From Burkholderia cepacia ATCC 25416 (lineage in GTDB: Bacteria; Pseudomonadota; Gammaproteobacteria; Burkholderiales; Burkholderiaceae), in contig NZ_CP012981.1 in assembly GCF_001411495.1 (NCBI RefSeq), forward strand, positions 1,922,001 to 1,986,000: a DNA stretch of 64,000 nt, written 5' to 3'. Both the position numbers and the translations under genes were made by a program. Of this stretch, positions 11,859-60,244 are shown piece after piece (positions within the stretch are counted from its first letter, which is position 1; the number at the start of each line of letters is the position of its first letter). Under the pieces are notes generated by a model that did no database searches, was not told the origin of the DNA, and was given only the letters and a program-made list of their open reading frames with translations.

Positions 11859-11890
11859 CGATTCGTCGGACGGACGGTGAGAGACGGGCA

Positions 11891-11924
11891 AAACCCGGCG
11901 AAGCGCGCTTCGCCGGGTTTTTTT
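11891..11924 (+). terminator. Intrinsic terminator after the DUF2968 gene
   Basis: AAACCCGGCGAAGCG (11891-11905) is followed directly by its exact reverse complement (11906-11920) and then TTTT, a 15-bp stem with a run of U. It separates this gene from the convergent membrane-protein gene. Confidence 0.9.
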
Positions 11925-55155: not shown

Positions 55156-56946
55156 ATGAGCTATAACGCCCCCGTCAAGGACATGCTGTTCGTGCTGAAG
55201 GAACTCGCGGGCATCGACGCCGTTGCGCAACTGCCGGGTTTCGAGGACGCCGGTTACGACACGGCGCAGGCCGTGCTCGACGAGTCCGCGAAGTTCTGCG
55301 GCGAGGTGCTGGCGCCGCTGAACGTCGAAGGCGACCGCAATCCGAGCAGCTGGAAGGACGGTGTCGTGACCGCGACGCCGGGCTTCGGCGAAGCGTTCCG
55401 CCAGTTCGTCGAAGGCGGCTGGCAGGGACTGCAGCACCCGTCCGAATACGACGGCCAGGGGCTGCCGAAGCTGATCGCGACGCCGTGCATCGAGATGCTG
55501 AACGCGTCGAACCTGTCGTTCGCGCTGTGCCCGCTGCTGACCGACGGCGCGATCGAGGCGCTGCTGACGGCCGGCACCGACGAGCAGAAGCAGCGCTACG
55601 TGCCGAAGCTGATCTCGGGCGAATGGACCGGCACGATGAACCTGACCGAGCCGCAGGCGGGCTCGGATCTTGCGCTGGTGCGTTCGCGCGCCGAACCGCA
55701 GGGCGACGGCACGTACAAGGTGTTCGGCACGAAGATCTTCATCACGTGGGGCGAGCACGACATGGCGGACAACATCGTCCACCTGGTGCTGGCACGCACG
55801 CCGAACGCGCCGGAAGGCGTGAAGGGCATTTCGCTGTTCATCGTGCCGAAGTTCCTGGTGAACGAGGACGGCTCGCTGGGCGAACGCAATGACGTGCACT
55901 GCGTGTCGATCGAGCACAAGCTCGGGATCAAGGCGAGCCCGACGGCGGTGCTGCAATATGGCGATAACGGCGGCGCGATCGGCTACCTGATCGGCGAAGA
56001 GAACCGCGGCCTCGAATACATGTTCATCATGATGAACGCGGCGCGCTTCGGCGTCGGGATGCAGGGGATCGGCGTGGCCGACCGCGCGTACCAGAAGGCC
56101 GCGGAATTCGCGAAGGAGCGCGTGCAGAGCCGCCCGGTGGACGGGTCGGCCAAGCAGTCGGTGACGATCATCCATCACCCGGACGTGCGCCGGATGCTCG
56201 GCACGATGCGCGCGCTGACCGAAGGCGCGCGCTCGCTGGCGTACGTGGCCGCGGCGCACAGCGACATTGCCCACCGCCATTCGGACGAGGCGACGCGGGC
56301 GCGTCATCAGGCAATCTACGAATATCTGGTGCCGGTCGTGAAGGGCTGGAGCACGGAGATGGTGAACGACGTGGCGAGCCTGGGCGTGCAGGTGCACGGC
56401 GGGATGGGTTTCATCGAGGAAACCGGCGCGGCGCAGTATTACCGCGATGCGCGGATCCTGGCGATCTACGAAGGCACGACGGCGATCCAGGCGAACGACC
56501 TGGTGGGCCGCAAGACGCTGCGCGACGGCGGCGCGGTGGCGAAGGCGCTGATCGCCGAAATCGGCGAGCCTGTCGCGGCGCTGGGCAAGCTGGACGGTGC
56601 GGCGGCCGCATCCATGAAGGTGCAACTGGAGAAGGGTGCGAAGGCGCTGTCGTCGGTGGTGGATTACGTGCTGGCGAACGCGAAGCAGGACCCGAACGCG
56701 GTGTTCGCGGGCAGCGTGCCGTACCTGAAGCTGGCGGGCGTGGTGCTGTGCGGATGGCAGATGGCGCGTGCGCTGGTGGCCGCGCAGGCGAACCGCGCGA
56801 GCGACCCGGCGTTCTTCGGCGCGAAGATCGCGATCGCGCAGCTCTATGCGGAGCAGGTGCTGGTGCAGGCAGGCGCGCTCGAAGCGTCGATTGTCGGCAC
56901 CAAGGGCAACGAGGGCGTGCTCGCGTTGACGGAAGACCAGTTCTGA
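55156..56946 (+). CDS. Acyl-CoA dehydrogenase, long form (DmdC/AcdH-like)
   Basis: A 596-residue FAD enzyme, longer than classical acyl-CoA dehydrogenases (about 380) because of an N-terminal Acyl-CoA_dh_N-like extension (YNAPVKDMLFVLKELAGIDAV) and a C-terminal ~120-residue domain. Core motifs: TGTMNLTEPQAGSDLALVRSRAEP, FITWGEHDMADNIVHLVLAR and VHGGMGFIEETGAAQYYRDARILAIYEGTTAIQANDLVGRK. This layout is shared by 3-methylmercaptopropionyl-CoA dehydrogenase (DmdC) and many uncharacterised paralogues; the substrate cannot be fixed. It should donate electrons to the neighbouring EtfBA. Confidence 0.88.
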   Translation: MSYNAPVKDMLFVLKELAGIDAVAQLPGFEDAGYDTAQAVLDESAKFCGEVLAPLNVEGDRNPSSWKDGVVTATPGFGEAFRQFVEGGWQGLQHPSEYDGQGLPKLIATPCIEMLNASNLSFALCPLLTDGAIEALLTAGTDEQKQRYVPKLISGEWTGTMNLTEPQAGSDLALVRSRAEPQGDGTYKVFGTKIFITWGEHDMADNIVHLVLARTPNAPEGVKGISLFIVPKFLVNEDGSLGERNDVHCVSIEHKLGIKASPTAVLQYGDNGGAIGYLIGEENRGLEYMFIMMNAARFGVGMQGIGVADRAYQKAAEFAKERVQSRPVDGSAKQSVTIIHHPDVRRMLGTMRALTEGARSLAYVAAAHSDIAHRHSDEATRARHQAIYEYLVPVVKGWSTEMVNDVASLGVQVHGGMGFIEETGAAQYYRDARILAIYEGTTAIQANDLVGRKTLRDGGAVAKALIAEIGEPVAALGKLDGAAAASMKVQLEKGAKALSSVVDYVLANAKQDPNAVFAGSVPYLKLAGVVLCGWQMARALVAAQANRASDPAFFGAKIAIAQLYAEQVLVQAGALEASIVGTKGNEGVLALTEDQF

Positions 56947-58332: not shown

Positions 58333-58477
58333 AGCTGCTCCAGATGGAAGGGACCAGATCGAGGCCGGGCGCACCTGCGGCTCCGTGTAACCTCTAGCTG
58401 ATCTAGTTTTTTGCGCTATGGTATTGTCGAATGTGTAGGTTTTGTTATCGTATTTTTCAGGTTTTCAGCATAAACAA

Positions 58478-58966
58478 ATGAGAACGCAACGTCAGCCCGT
58501 ACGCTCGCTCGACAAGCTCGACCGGCGCATCCTGAAACTGCTCCAGGACGACGGCCGGATGGCGATGAAGGACCTCGCGGAACAGGTCGGACTGACCGTC
58601 ACGCCGTGCATCGAGCGTGTGCGGCGCATGGAGCGGGACGGCGTGATCACCGGTTATCACGCGCGTGTCGATCCCCACCAGCTGGATGCCGCGCTGCTGG
58701 TGTTCGTCGAGATCACGCTCGGCCACAAGGGCGGCAACATGTTCGAGCAATTCCGCCGGGAAGTGATGAAGATCGACGAGGTGCTCGAGTGTCATCTCGT
58801 GTCCGGCGATTTCGACTACCTGATCAAGGCGCGGATCGGCGAAATGGCCGACTACCGCAAGCTGCTCGGCGACATCCTGCTGCAGTTGCCCGGCGCCGTG
58901 CAGTCGAAGAGCTATGTCGTGATGGAAGAAATCAAGGAGACGCTGACGATCGCGGTGGGCGACTGA
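58478..58966 (+). CDS. lrp: Lrp/AsnC-family transcriptional regulator
   Basis: A 162-residue regulator with an N-terminal helix-turn-helix (LDKLDRRILKLLQDDGRMAMKDLAEQVGLTVTPCIERVRRMERDGVI) and a C-terminal RAM domain (ALLVFVEITLGHKGGNMFEQFRREVMKIDEVLECHLVSGDFDYLIKARI). Close to Lrp in length and sequence. The 145-base divergent gap to dadA is AT-rich (TTTTTTGCGC, TTTTCAGG, TTTTCAGCAT), as expected for an Lrp control region. ATG at 58478 fits the family start. Confidence 0.92.
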   Translation: MRTQRQPVRSLDKLDRRILKLLQDDGRMAMKDLAEQVGLTVTPCIERVRRMERDGVITGYHARVDPHQLDAALLVFVEITLGHKGGNMFEQFRREVMKIDEVLECHLVSGDFDYLIKARIGEMADYRKLLGDILLQLPGAVQSKSYVVMEEIKETLTIAVGD

Positions 58967-59012
58967 CGTACCGGCGGCAGGCCGCCGGACCCTTTATCCC
59001 GCCCTTGGCACG

Positions 59013-59052
59013 CTGCGCCCAATACTGTATAAATGTACAGTATTGGGCGCAG
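59013..59052. promoter_or_regulatory. LexA box within a perfect 16-bp-arm palindrome
   Basis: CTGTATAAATGTACAG (59025-59040) matches the LexA consensus CTGT-N8-ACAG, with TA on both sides as in the strongest sites. The arms continue perfectly outward, CTGCGCCCAATACTGT and ACAGTATTGGGCGCAG, over 59013-59052. The site ends 16 bases before the radical SAM start codon, so LexA would block that promoter. The GC-rich outer arms could also form an RNA hairpin after lrp, but there is no T-run. Confidence 0.85.
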
Positions 59053-59068
59053 GCGAATGGGTGGGCAT

Positions 59069-60244
59069 ATGGACGATCGATCCGACAACGAATTTCCGAT
59101 AGCGCCGCCCGTGCCCCGCAAGGGGCGCGGTGCGGTCGACAACCTGCAGGGGCGATACGAGATCGCCCAGCGTGAAGCGGTCGACGACGGCTGGACACAC
59201 GAGTCGGACGATGCCGATTTCCCCGCGCCGCTGCGCACGCAGGTATTCGAGGAGCGGGCGAAGAGCATCCTGACGCACAACCAGTCGCCCGATATTCCAT
59301 TCAGCGTATCGCTCAATCCGTATCGCGGTTGCGAGCACGGGTGCATCTACTGCTTTGCGCGTCCGACGCACAGTTATCTCGGCTTGTCGCCGGGGCTCGA
59401 TTTCGAAAGCCGCATCTATGCGAAGGTCAATGCGGCCGAGTTGCTCGAGCGCGAGATTTCGCGCAAGCGCTACGTGCCGGAGCCGATCGCGCTCGGCGTC
59501 AACACCGACGCCTACCAGCCGGTCGAGCGCGACTTGCGCATCACGCGCAGCGTGATTCAGGTGATGCACGATCGCGGGTTGCCGTTCGCGGCGATCACGA
59601 AGTCGTCGCTGATCGAGCGCGATCTCGACTTGCTCGCGCCGATGGCCGAGCGCAAGCAGGTGATGGCGGCGGTCACGATCACGACGCTGGACGCCGATCT
59701 TGCGCGCACGCTCGAGCCGCGCGCGGCGACGCCGGCGCGACGGTTGCGTACGATTCGTGCGCTGAGCGAGGCGGGCGTGCCGGTCGGCGTGAGCATTGCG
59801 CCGGTGATTCCGTTCGTCACCGAGCCCGACATGGAGCGTGTGCTCGAGGCGTGCGCGGAAGCCGGCGCGACGCATGCGAGCTACATCATCCTGAGGCTGC
59901 CGTGGGAAGTCGCGCCGCTGTTCAAGAACTGGCTGGCCGCGCATTTTCCCGACCGCGCGGAGCGCGTGATGAACCGCGTGCGCGACATGCGCGGCGGGAA
60001 AGACTACGACTCGGATTTCTCGAAACGGATGAAGGGCGAGGGAATCTGGGCCGACCTGCTGCGGCAGCGCTTCCGCCAGGCCGTCAAGCGGCTCGGGCTG
60101 AACGAGCGCACGAACGGCATTCTCGATCTGTCGCAGTTTCGCGGCACGCCGGCCGCCGCAGCGCCGGTGCCGCGTGTTGCTGTACGTTCAGCCGGCACGC
60201 GATCGACGCAGGCGCGCGACGACATGCAATTGAACCTGTTCTGA
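59069..60244 (+). CDS. Radical SAM protein, SplB-like (PA0069 family)
   Basis: A 391-residue radical SAM protein related to spore photoproduct lyase. The 4Fe-4S cysteines are Cys88, Cys92 and Cys95 in NPYRGCEHGCIYCFARPTH. Other family parts: SRIYAKVNAAELLEREISRKRYVPEPIALGVNTDAYQPVER, FAAITKSSLIERD and ASYIILRLPWEVAPLFKNWLAAHFPDRAERVM. It lacks a recognisable extra DNA-binding domain. Its role is not established. A near-perfect LexA box at the promoter suggests DNA-damage induction, and the SplB relationship makes a DNA-lesion role attractive but unproven. ATG at 59069 follows GGGTGGGC; earlier in-frame starts lie in or next to the palindrome. Confidence 0.88.
   Translation: MDDRSDNEFPIAPPVPRKGRGAVDNLQGRYEIAQREAVDDGWTHESDDADFPAPLRTQVFEERAKSILTHNQSPDIPFSVSLNPYRGCEHGCIYCFARPTHSYLGLSPGLDFESRIYAKVNAAELLEREISRKRYVPEPIALGVNTDAYQPVERDLRITRSVIQVMHDRGLPFAAITKSSLIERDLDLLAPMAERKQVMAAVTITTLDADLARTLEPRAATPARRLRTIRALSEAGVPVGVSIAPVIPFVTEPDMERVLEACAEAGATHASYIILRLPWEVAPLFKNWLAAHFPDRAERVMNRVRDMRGGKDYDSDFSKRMKGEGIWADLLRQRFRQAVKRLGLNERTNGILDLSQFRGTPAAAAPVPRVAVRSAGTRSTQARDDMQLNLF

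Follow-up and report, generated by a model that had tools for sequence, protein, structure and literature searches.

Organization of the splB locus

The locus lies within a window of 64,000 nucleotides of Burkholderia cepacia ATCC 25416 DNA, the whole stretch that was analysed and to which all coordinates below refer. A gene for an Lrp-like regulator stands upstream of, and co-directional (+ strand) with, a gene for a radical SAM protein, termed splB here, and the two are separated by a short gap that contains a LexA box at the centre of a long inverted repeat. The features are:

58442..58966, + strand: lrp-like regulator gene, putative start (NF008370 Lrp, 216 bits against a cut-off of 233; Pfam AsnC domains)
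59005..59010, + strand: putative -35 element TTGGCA, conserved at this offset
59013..59029, + strand: left arm of the inverted repeat, pairing perfectly with the right arm
59025..59040, no strand: LexA operator CTGTATAAATGTACAG, assigned by motif match and conservation before orthologues
59028..59033, + strand: putative -10 element TATAAA, within the LexA box, 17-nt spacer, conserved at this offset
59036..59052, + strand: right arm of the inverted repeat, pairing perfectly with the left arm
59059..59065, + strand: GGGTGGG, possible weak ribosome-binding site, able to pair with CCCGCCC in a read-through RNA
59069..60244, + strand: PA0069-family radical SAM protein, 391 aa, CxxxCxxC at 88/92/95 (NF033668, E 8e-142; PF04055)

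The initial annotation had described a palindrome with 16-bp arms around an 8-base centre; the palindrome is real, but its perfect arms are 17 bp long and enclose 6 nt (59013-59052). The distance of 16 bases from the end of the right arm to the ATG at 59069 was given correctly, and there are further in-frame ATGs at 59057 and 59033. The CCCGCCC that is able to pair with GGGTGGG sits just 5' of the -35 element. With loops of at most 10 nt, the inverted repeat has the longest perfect stem of the window (17 bp; the runner-up has 16), and since the longest stems in 20 first-order Markov sequences of 64 kb were 10-15 bp, so that it exceeds every one of these maxima, we consider it to be beyond chance. 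No phage match to 58900-59130 was found. Elsewhere in the window, at 11890-11921, a 16-bp perfect palindrome without spacer and with A/T tracts at its ends resembles a bidirectional terminator.

The radical SAM protein

The protein scores well above the curated cut-off of the PA0069 family NF033668 (472.3 bits against 360, E 8e-142) and is a relative only of the Rv2578c family NF038135 (237 against a cut-off of 430). Cys88, Cys92 and Cys95, as first pointed out and numbered from the ATG at 59069, are the sole invariant cysteines across 37 aligned orthologues. The proposed kinship with spore photoproduct lyase (SPL) survives at the level of the fold and the cluster motif: comparison of the predicted structure (mean pLDDT 76.5) returned spore photoproduct lyases (PDB 4fhc and others) as the closest solved folds, a likeness in overall fold, and the three cluster cysteines in CxxxCxxC (C88, C92, C95) are common to both. 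It does not extend to the family models or to the extra cysteine. The protein had no match at E 0.001 to the SPL models TIGR04070 and PF20903, against which the homologue in L307 scored 21.4 (cut-off 400) and 19.3 (cut-off 27), and no SPL was among the matches when the PDB was searched by sequence or profile. SPL has an extra catalytic cysteine, Cys141 in B. subtilis (the SPL mutants among the fold-comparison matches are at C140), whereas the 37 orthologues contain no fourth invariant cysteine, a comparison that involved no residue-level superposition of the active sites. The enzyme probably acts on damaged or modified nucleic acid. At two loci (L159 in G046 and L160 in G016) the splB orthologue matches from residue 90 only and lies beside a divergently oriented second homologue of 49-54% identity.

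The LexA operator and the putative splB promoter

The extended pattern TACTGT-N8-ACAGTA has a single exact site in the 8.6-Mb genome, the splB operator, and we agree with the initial annotation that CTGTATAAATGTACAG, with TA on either side, is a near-ideal LexA operator. Judged by sequence, the box overlaps a promoter-like TTGGCA-N17-TATAAA. Among 64 Burkholderia loci (here and below, counts out of 64 include L159, a rearranged locus with a spurious box call), the -35 offset is occupied by TTGGCA in 59 and by TTGGCG in 3 (62/64 together), and the -10 offset by TATAAA in 61, so placed that transcription would start near 59040. The output of a simple promoter scan, whose rule demands T as the final -10 base, did not contain this putative splB promoter. 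The genome encodes LexA (one PF01726 match), with two boxes directly adjoining, each with two mismatches to the extended pattern.

The radical SAM gene is present in all of 65 Burkholderia genomes. Conservation of the box before orthologues, proposed at the outset as a check, was confirmed in 63 of these at the usual place, 54 of the boxes being intact and 9 having one half-site changed; in the remaining two genomes the locus is rearranged. The nine altered boxes (L128, L129, L139, L140, L141, L144, L146, L152 and L153) read CTGT..CCAG, with a weakened right half-site, a trait that changed 5 times on the tree, and seven of the nine loci retain 11 or more of their 14 arm pairs. In the stretch examined before 80 named orthologue loci, a few of which have little upstream DNA, CTGT-N8-ACAG was found before 46, GTTC-N7-GTTC before 15 (13 of them Alphaproteobacteria by name; L070 and L079 are otherwise named) and neither before 19. 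With one mismatch allowed, the box was found at 28/28 loci in g20, 26/26 in g10, 7/8 in g25, 3/3 in g13, 2/3 in g16, 2/2 in g8, 5/5 in g17/18 and 6/16 in g3; it was not found at the other 10 of the 16 g3 loci, nor at any locus of g24 (0/7) or g5 (0/1). One of the 100 loci fetched, L273, whose match begins at residue 50, is outside every group count.

LexA-binding sites before a splB homologue have been predicted in α- and β-Proteobacteria (Sanchez-Alberola et al. 2012, PMC3323433), with 12 Burkholderia entries in the legend of figure 5; passages of PMC8565304 cite control of SplB by the SOS response for several species, and passages of PMC3765255 tie radical SAM genes similar to splB to SOS operons. 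SOS control of splB was thus already predicted in print in 2012, and the present work adds support only. In open-access PMC we found no paper joining PA0069 with the LexA regulon. In Pseudomonas aeruginosa, PA0069 belongs to the LexA regulon.

From the overlap of operator and promoter, the conservation of both, the presence in the genome of a LexA beside its own boxes and the published prediction, we conclude that this splB-type gene is very probably under LexA (SOS) control. LexA bound over the -10 region would repress splB. Cleavage of LexA via RecA relieves repression in established LexA biology, and such RecA-triggered cleavage would switch splB on. The initial annotation had proposed a damage-induced enzyme; its SOS control is well supported by the operator, the promoter overlap and the conservation in orthologues, while induction itself is presumed from them.

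Covariation and turnover of the outer arms

The LexA consensus does not include the outer part of the left arm, 59013-59022, which covaries with 59043-59052. Within Burkholderia both sides of these ten outer base pairs change, and complementarity is mostly retained: at least 8 of the 10 pairs are formed at 56/64 Burkholderia loci with a called box, at 18/28 in the Paraburkholderia group and at 0/26 in the Caballeronia group. For alignment of the arms we considered 93 loci, of which 24 were merged because of an identical core, and used 51 of the 69 distinct hairpins. L016 and L040, the near-duplicates L097, L101, L108, L125, L127, L130, L131 and L197, and the Paraburkholderia-group loci L178, L183-L186 and L188-L190, which pair only with a gap, were left out; the unpaired or half-paired rows L174, L151-L153, L155 and L156 were retained. 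In this alignment 90.8% of cells are paired against 57.6% after shuffling, and the covariation score is 0.847 against 0.229 (sd 0.021) for shuffled and 0.118-0.175 for slid controls, the figures for the arms being raised by these omissions. Each of the ten outer pairs has changed on both sides and occurs as three or more pair types. Pieces of the lrp and splB coding sequences gave a tree of 90 rows, on which the ten pairs underwent 123 changes on the left side, 133 on the right and 167 of the pair, which implies about 89 coupled changes, a count made without a shuffled control; the orientation of the operator centre flipped 3 times.

Swapping the right flank among genomes weakened the fold in Burkholderia and in both the Paraburkholderia and the Caballeronia group, with 0 of 2000 swaps as good in each of the three; the count was 23 of 2000 in g17/18 (five sequences), and no weakening was seen in g25, g13, g8/16 or g3. 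The signal in the Caballeronia group comes from a longer-range stem, for which a genome's own flanks pair better than swapped ones. Loci of this group (L202-L226 and L272) have no arms at the box, and in many a stem TTGCG.../...CGCAA extends as far as the start codon.

The arms turn over rapidly. In 21 genomes (our own and 20 picked with the gene on the splB contig), the arms diverge more than the four-fold sites, themselves subject to codon bias, in the acyl-CoA dehydrogenase gene nearby (0.53 in the left and 0.58 in the right arm where the four-fold value is 0.28), and there are 17 distinct left arms. The stem of the etfA terminator, by comparison, has a 6-nt core that is identical in 20/20 readable genomes, the search pattern having itself contained that core. 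This invariance is not a general rule, because the stem of the terminator after the acyl-CoA dehydrogenase gene varies in several genomes, apparently, by eye, with matching changes. The dehydrogenase gene (window 55156-56946) has a second copy on another replicon (G000 contig 3:1161959-1163746; 99% protein identity), and two matches are present in several genomes of the genus as well. The arms constitute a feature of their own, in which complementarity is kept and sequence is not, and these covarying arms are the new part of the finding.

Terminators and signs of selection on RNA

An intrinsic terminator consists of a stem followed by a T-tract. Many orthologues of the Paraburkholderia group have both, whereas a T-tract is missing from the Burkholderia hairpin. 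Of the 16 distinct stems in the Paraburkholderia group, 10 are followed by at least 5 T in 8 positions and none has at least 5 A on the opposite side; lrp-splB gaps are terminator-like at 18/28 loci (at 12 of these around the box), compared with 3.0 after mononucleotide shuffling. The corresponding figures are 4/26 against 0.3 in the Caballeronia group and 3/63 against 4.3, and thus no excess, in Burkholderia, where a plain terminator is not supported, the T-tract being missing and the gaps not terminator-like.

Stems that form 8 or more of the 10 pairs contain 3 G-T, 7 A-C and 4 other mismatches, small numbers with no matched positive control; the 3 G-T against 7 A-C give no sign that lrp-sense RNA is kept. 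The Burkholderia and Paraburkholderia-group sets contain 12 G-T and 14 A-C mismatches. A G-T excess in the Caballeronia group (26 G-T, 1 A-C; 17 distinct stems, 8/26 loci skipped) was discounted, swapped pairs being similar (32.0 against 8.0).

Arms at other LexA boxes

At 43 LexA-like boxes before genes other than splB in 12 genomes, 20 of them hand-picked among the matches listed and the own-genome pattern matches L002 and L015 omitted as not LexA-like, only one has at least 8 of the 10 outer pairs and the average is 3.16, compared with 9.86 at seven splB boxes. The sole armed control (L397 / L400, G258 contig 19) has perfect outer arms and an ambiguous neighbouring gene.

A covariance model run on both strands of the own genome matched at full length only at splB, bar one full-span match at E 1. 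In 100 genomes of the family and 120 of the order, under stricter filters by which some weak matches were lost, hairpins were found elsewhere too. Three g13 genomes (L299-L301) have an armed box after a MobA-like gene and before a DUF4130/TIGR03915 + UDG-superfamily gene (families matched on L301), and the splB boxes of these genomes are without arms. In g15, L303 is a hairpin upstream of a radical SAM gene of TIGR03916 ('putative DNA modification/repair'), and because the neighbouring catalase-like gene is divergent, it represents a LexA hairpin without a read-through context; the second g15 locus, L302, has arms too. Further hairpins precede DUF2471 genes, after HTH-cupin regulators (L305 and L308; 9 and 8 pairs from the 16-mer), precede lexA in a divergent setting (L285), precede a splB after an AcrB-type gene (L284), lie between an amidohydrolase gene and one without a Pfam match (L283), or lie near a macro-domain gene (L282; 7 pairs).

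Searches of open-access PMC on LexA operators with terminators or palindromes, on Burkholderia SOS, on fold-back inhibition and on SPL in non-spore-formers listed nothing that names these arms, and passages of PMC3323433 on the SOS-regulated splB, its section 7 included, make no mention of extra arms.

Origin of the arms

The operator palindrome forms the middle of the longer inverted repeat. We hypothesize that in Burkholderia the operator hairpin would seed template switching between the arms at replication, and that such arm-to-arm copying would keep complementarity while the sequence drifts; in the Paraburkholderia group the hairpin has often gained a T-tract and would so double as an intrinsic terminator for lrp. 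Taken as a whole, an SOS-regulated PA0069-family gene whose arms arose by template switching, with a terminator recruited in the Paraburkholderia group, is a reading towards which we lean slightly. That template switching is the main cause of the arms we put at a little short of even, and the stricter proposition, that switching at the LexA operator both creates and preserves covariation without selection on RNA while one lineage recruited the terminator, is more doubtful still.

Passages of PMC8794818 describe hairpins made and maintained through template switching, the role of the process in maintaining short stems being less clear there. Those hairpins resemble the present ones in their perfect stems and coupled changes; they differ in that they concern RNA genes, and loop inversions are rare at the splB arms. 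Template switching would be expected to invert the loop at times and only 3 flips are seen, which argues against it, although the -10 element within the centre may forbid inversion. It also leaves unexplained the preference for splB, given arms at only 1 of 43 other LexA-like boxes, and selection for pairing with deleterious intermediates could yield the same pattern.

The strongest competitor is a selected hairpin that insulates splB: RNA reading through from lrp would fold and be terminated or trapped, so that splB is not driven by the lrp promoter. A splB mRNA starting near 59040 would exclude the left arm, as this explanation supposes, and a co-directional Lrp match is found upstream at 63/64 Burkholderia, 27/28 Paraburkholderia-group and 26/26 Caballeronia-group loci with a called box, ending 12-75 nt before the -35 position. 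A same-strand upstream gene was called at 63/65 Burkholderia and 28/28 Paraburkholderia-group loci; no more than 8 of 14 arm pairs are formed at the 18 splB loci whose upstream gene is confidently called on the opposite strand (L075 and L243, where that call is weak, reach 10 and 9 of 14); and in g25, where no Lrp match was found, 7/7 boxes are without arms, 5/8 of its loci ending at contig ends. The terminators of the Paraburkholderia group point the same way. Against insulation, the lrp-splB gap of Burkholderia is not terminator-like, the arms turn over fast while the etfA terminator stem core is constant in the same genomes, no G-U preference was seen in the small number of mismatches, and the armed co-directional splB loci come mostly from two related genera. 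LexA hairpins also occur in the divergent settings of L303 and L285, which weaken the proposal that arms arise only with a co-directional upstream gene. The appeal of an insulator is that it explains the bias to splB, the co-directional placement of lrp and the sister group's terminators, and we hold it to be a real but doubtful possibility. Copying between the arms explains the fast turnover, the apparent lack of G-U bias and the divergent settings, and we rank it above a selected insulator.

Fold-back inhibition of translation, of which IS10 is an example, would have the base of the hairpin in a read-through RNA hide the splB ribosome-binding site. The pairing variants CCCGCCC/GGGTGGG and CTCGCCC/GGGTGAG, a swap test of the base stem (5/5000) and the stem that reaches the start codon at many Caballeronia-group loci are in its favour. 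Computed accessibility of the ribosome-binding site lends it no support in Burkholderia, where it is unchanged across 63 loci (0.37 in the read-through RNA, 0.38 in the gene's own transcript, 0.32 with a shuffled left flank); the difference is modest at 26 Caballeronia-group loci (0.36 against 0.50), and in some Burkholderia 61-66 nt separate the box from the start codon. We regard this mechanism as improbable. The initial annotation had held the outer arms to be dispensable for LexA and possibly to serve another factor or an RNA hairpin; they are indeed not LexA sequence, but a second sequence-specific regulator, to which we give almost no credence even though dimeric regulators typically have symmetric operators, is rejected on the unconserved arm sequence (17 distinct left arms in 21 genomes).

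Implications

Compensatory change in the arms is very strong, and it occurs in a promoter that, if the transcription start is placed correctly, gives rise to no transcript with both arms. Either a hairpin around a repressor site shields an SOS gene from its neighbour, or mutation itself generates covariation. Covariation is commonly used to prove that an RNA is functional; if template switching is the cause here, covariation alone would be insufficient for that purpose, and LexA operators would be natural reporters of template switching, with Burkholderia, Paraburkholderia and other SOS-type genes as natural replicates.
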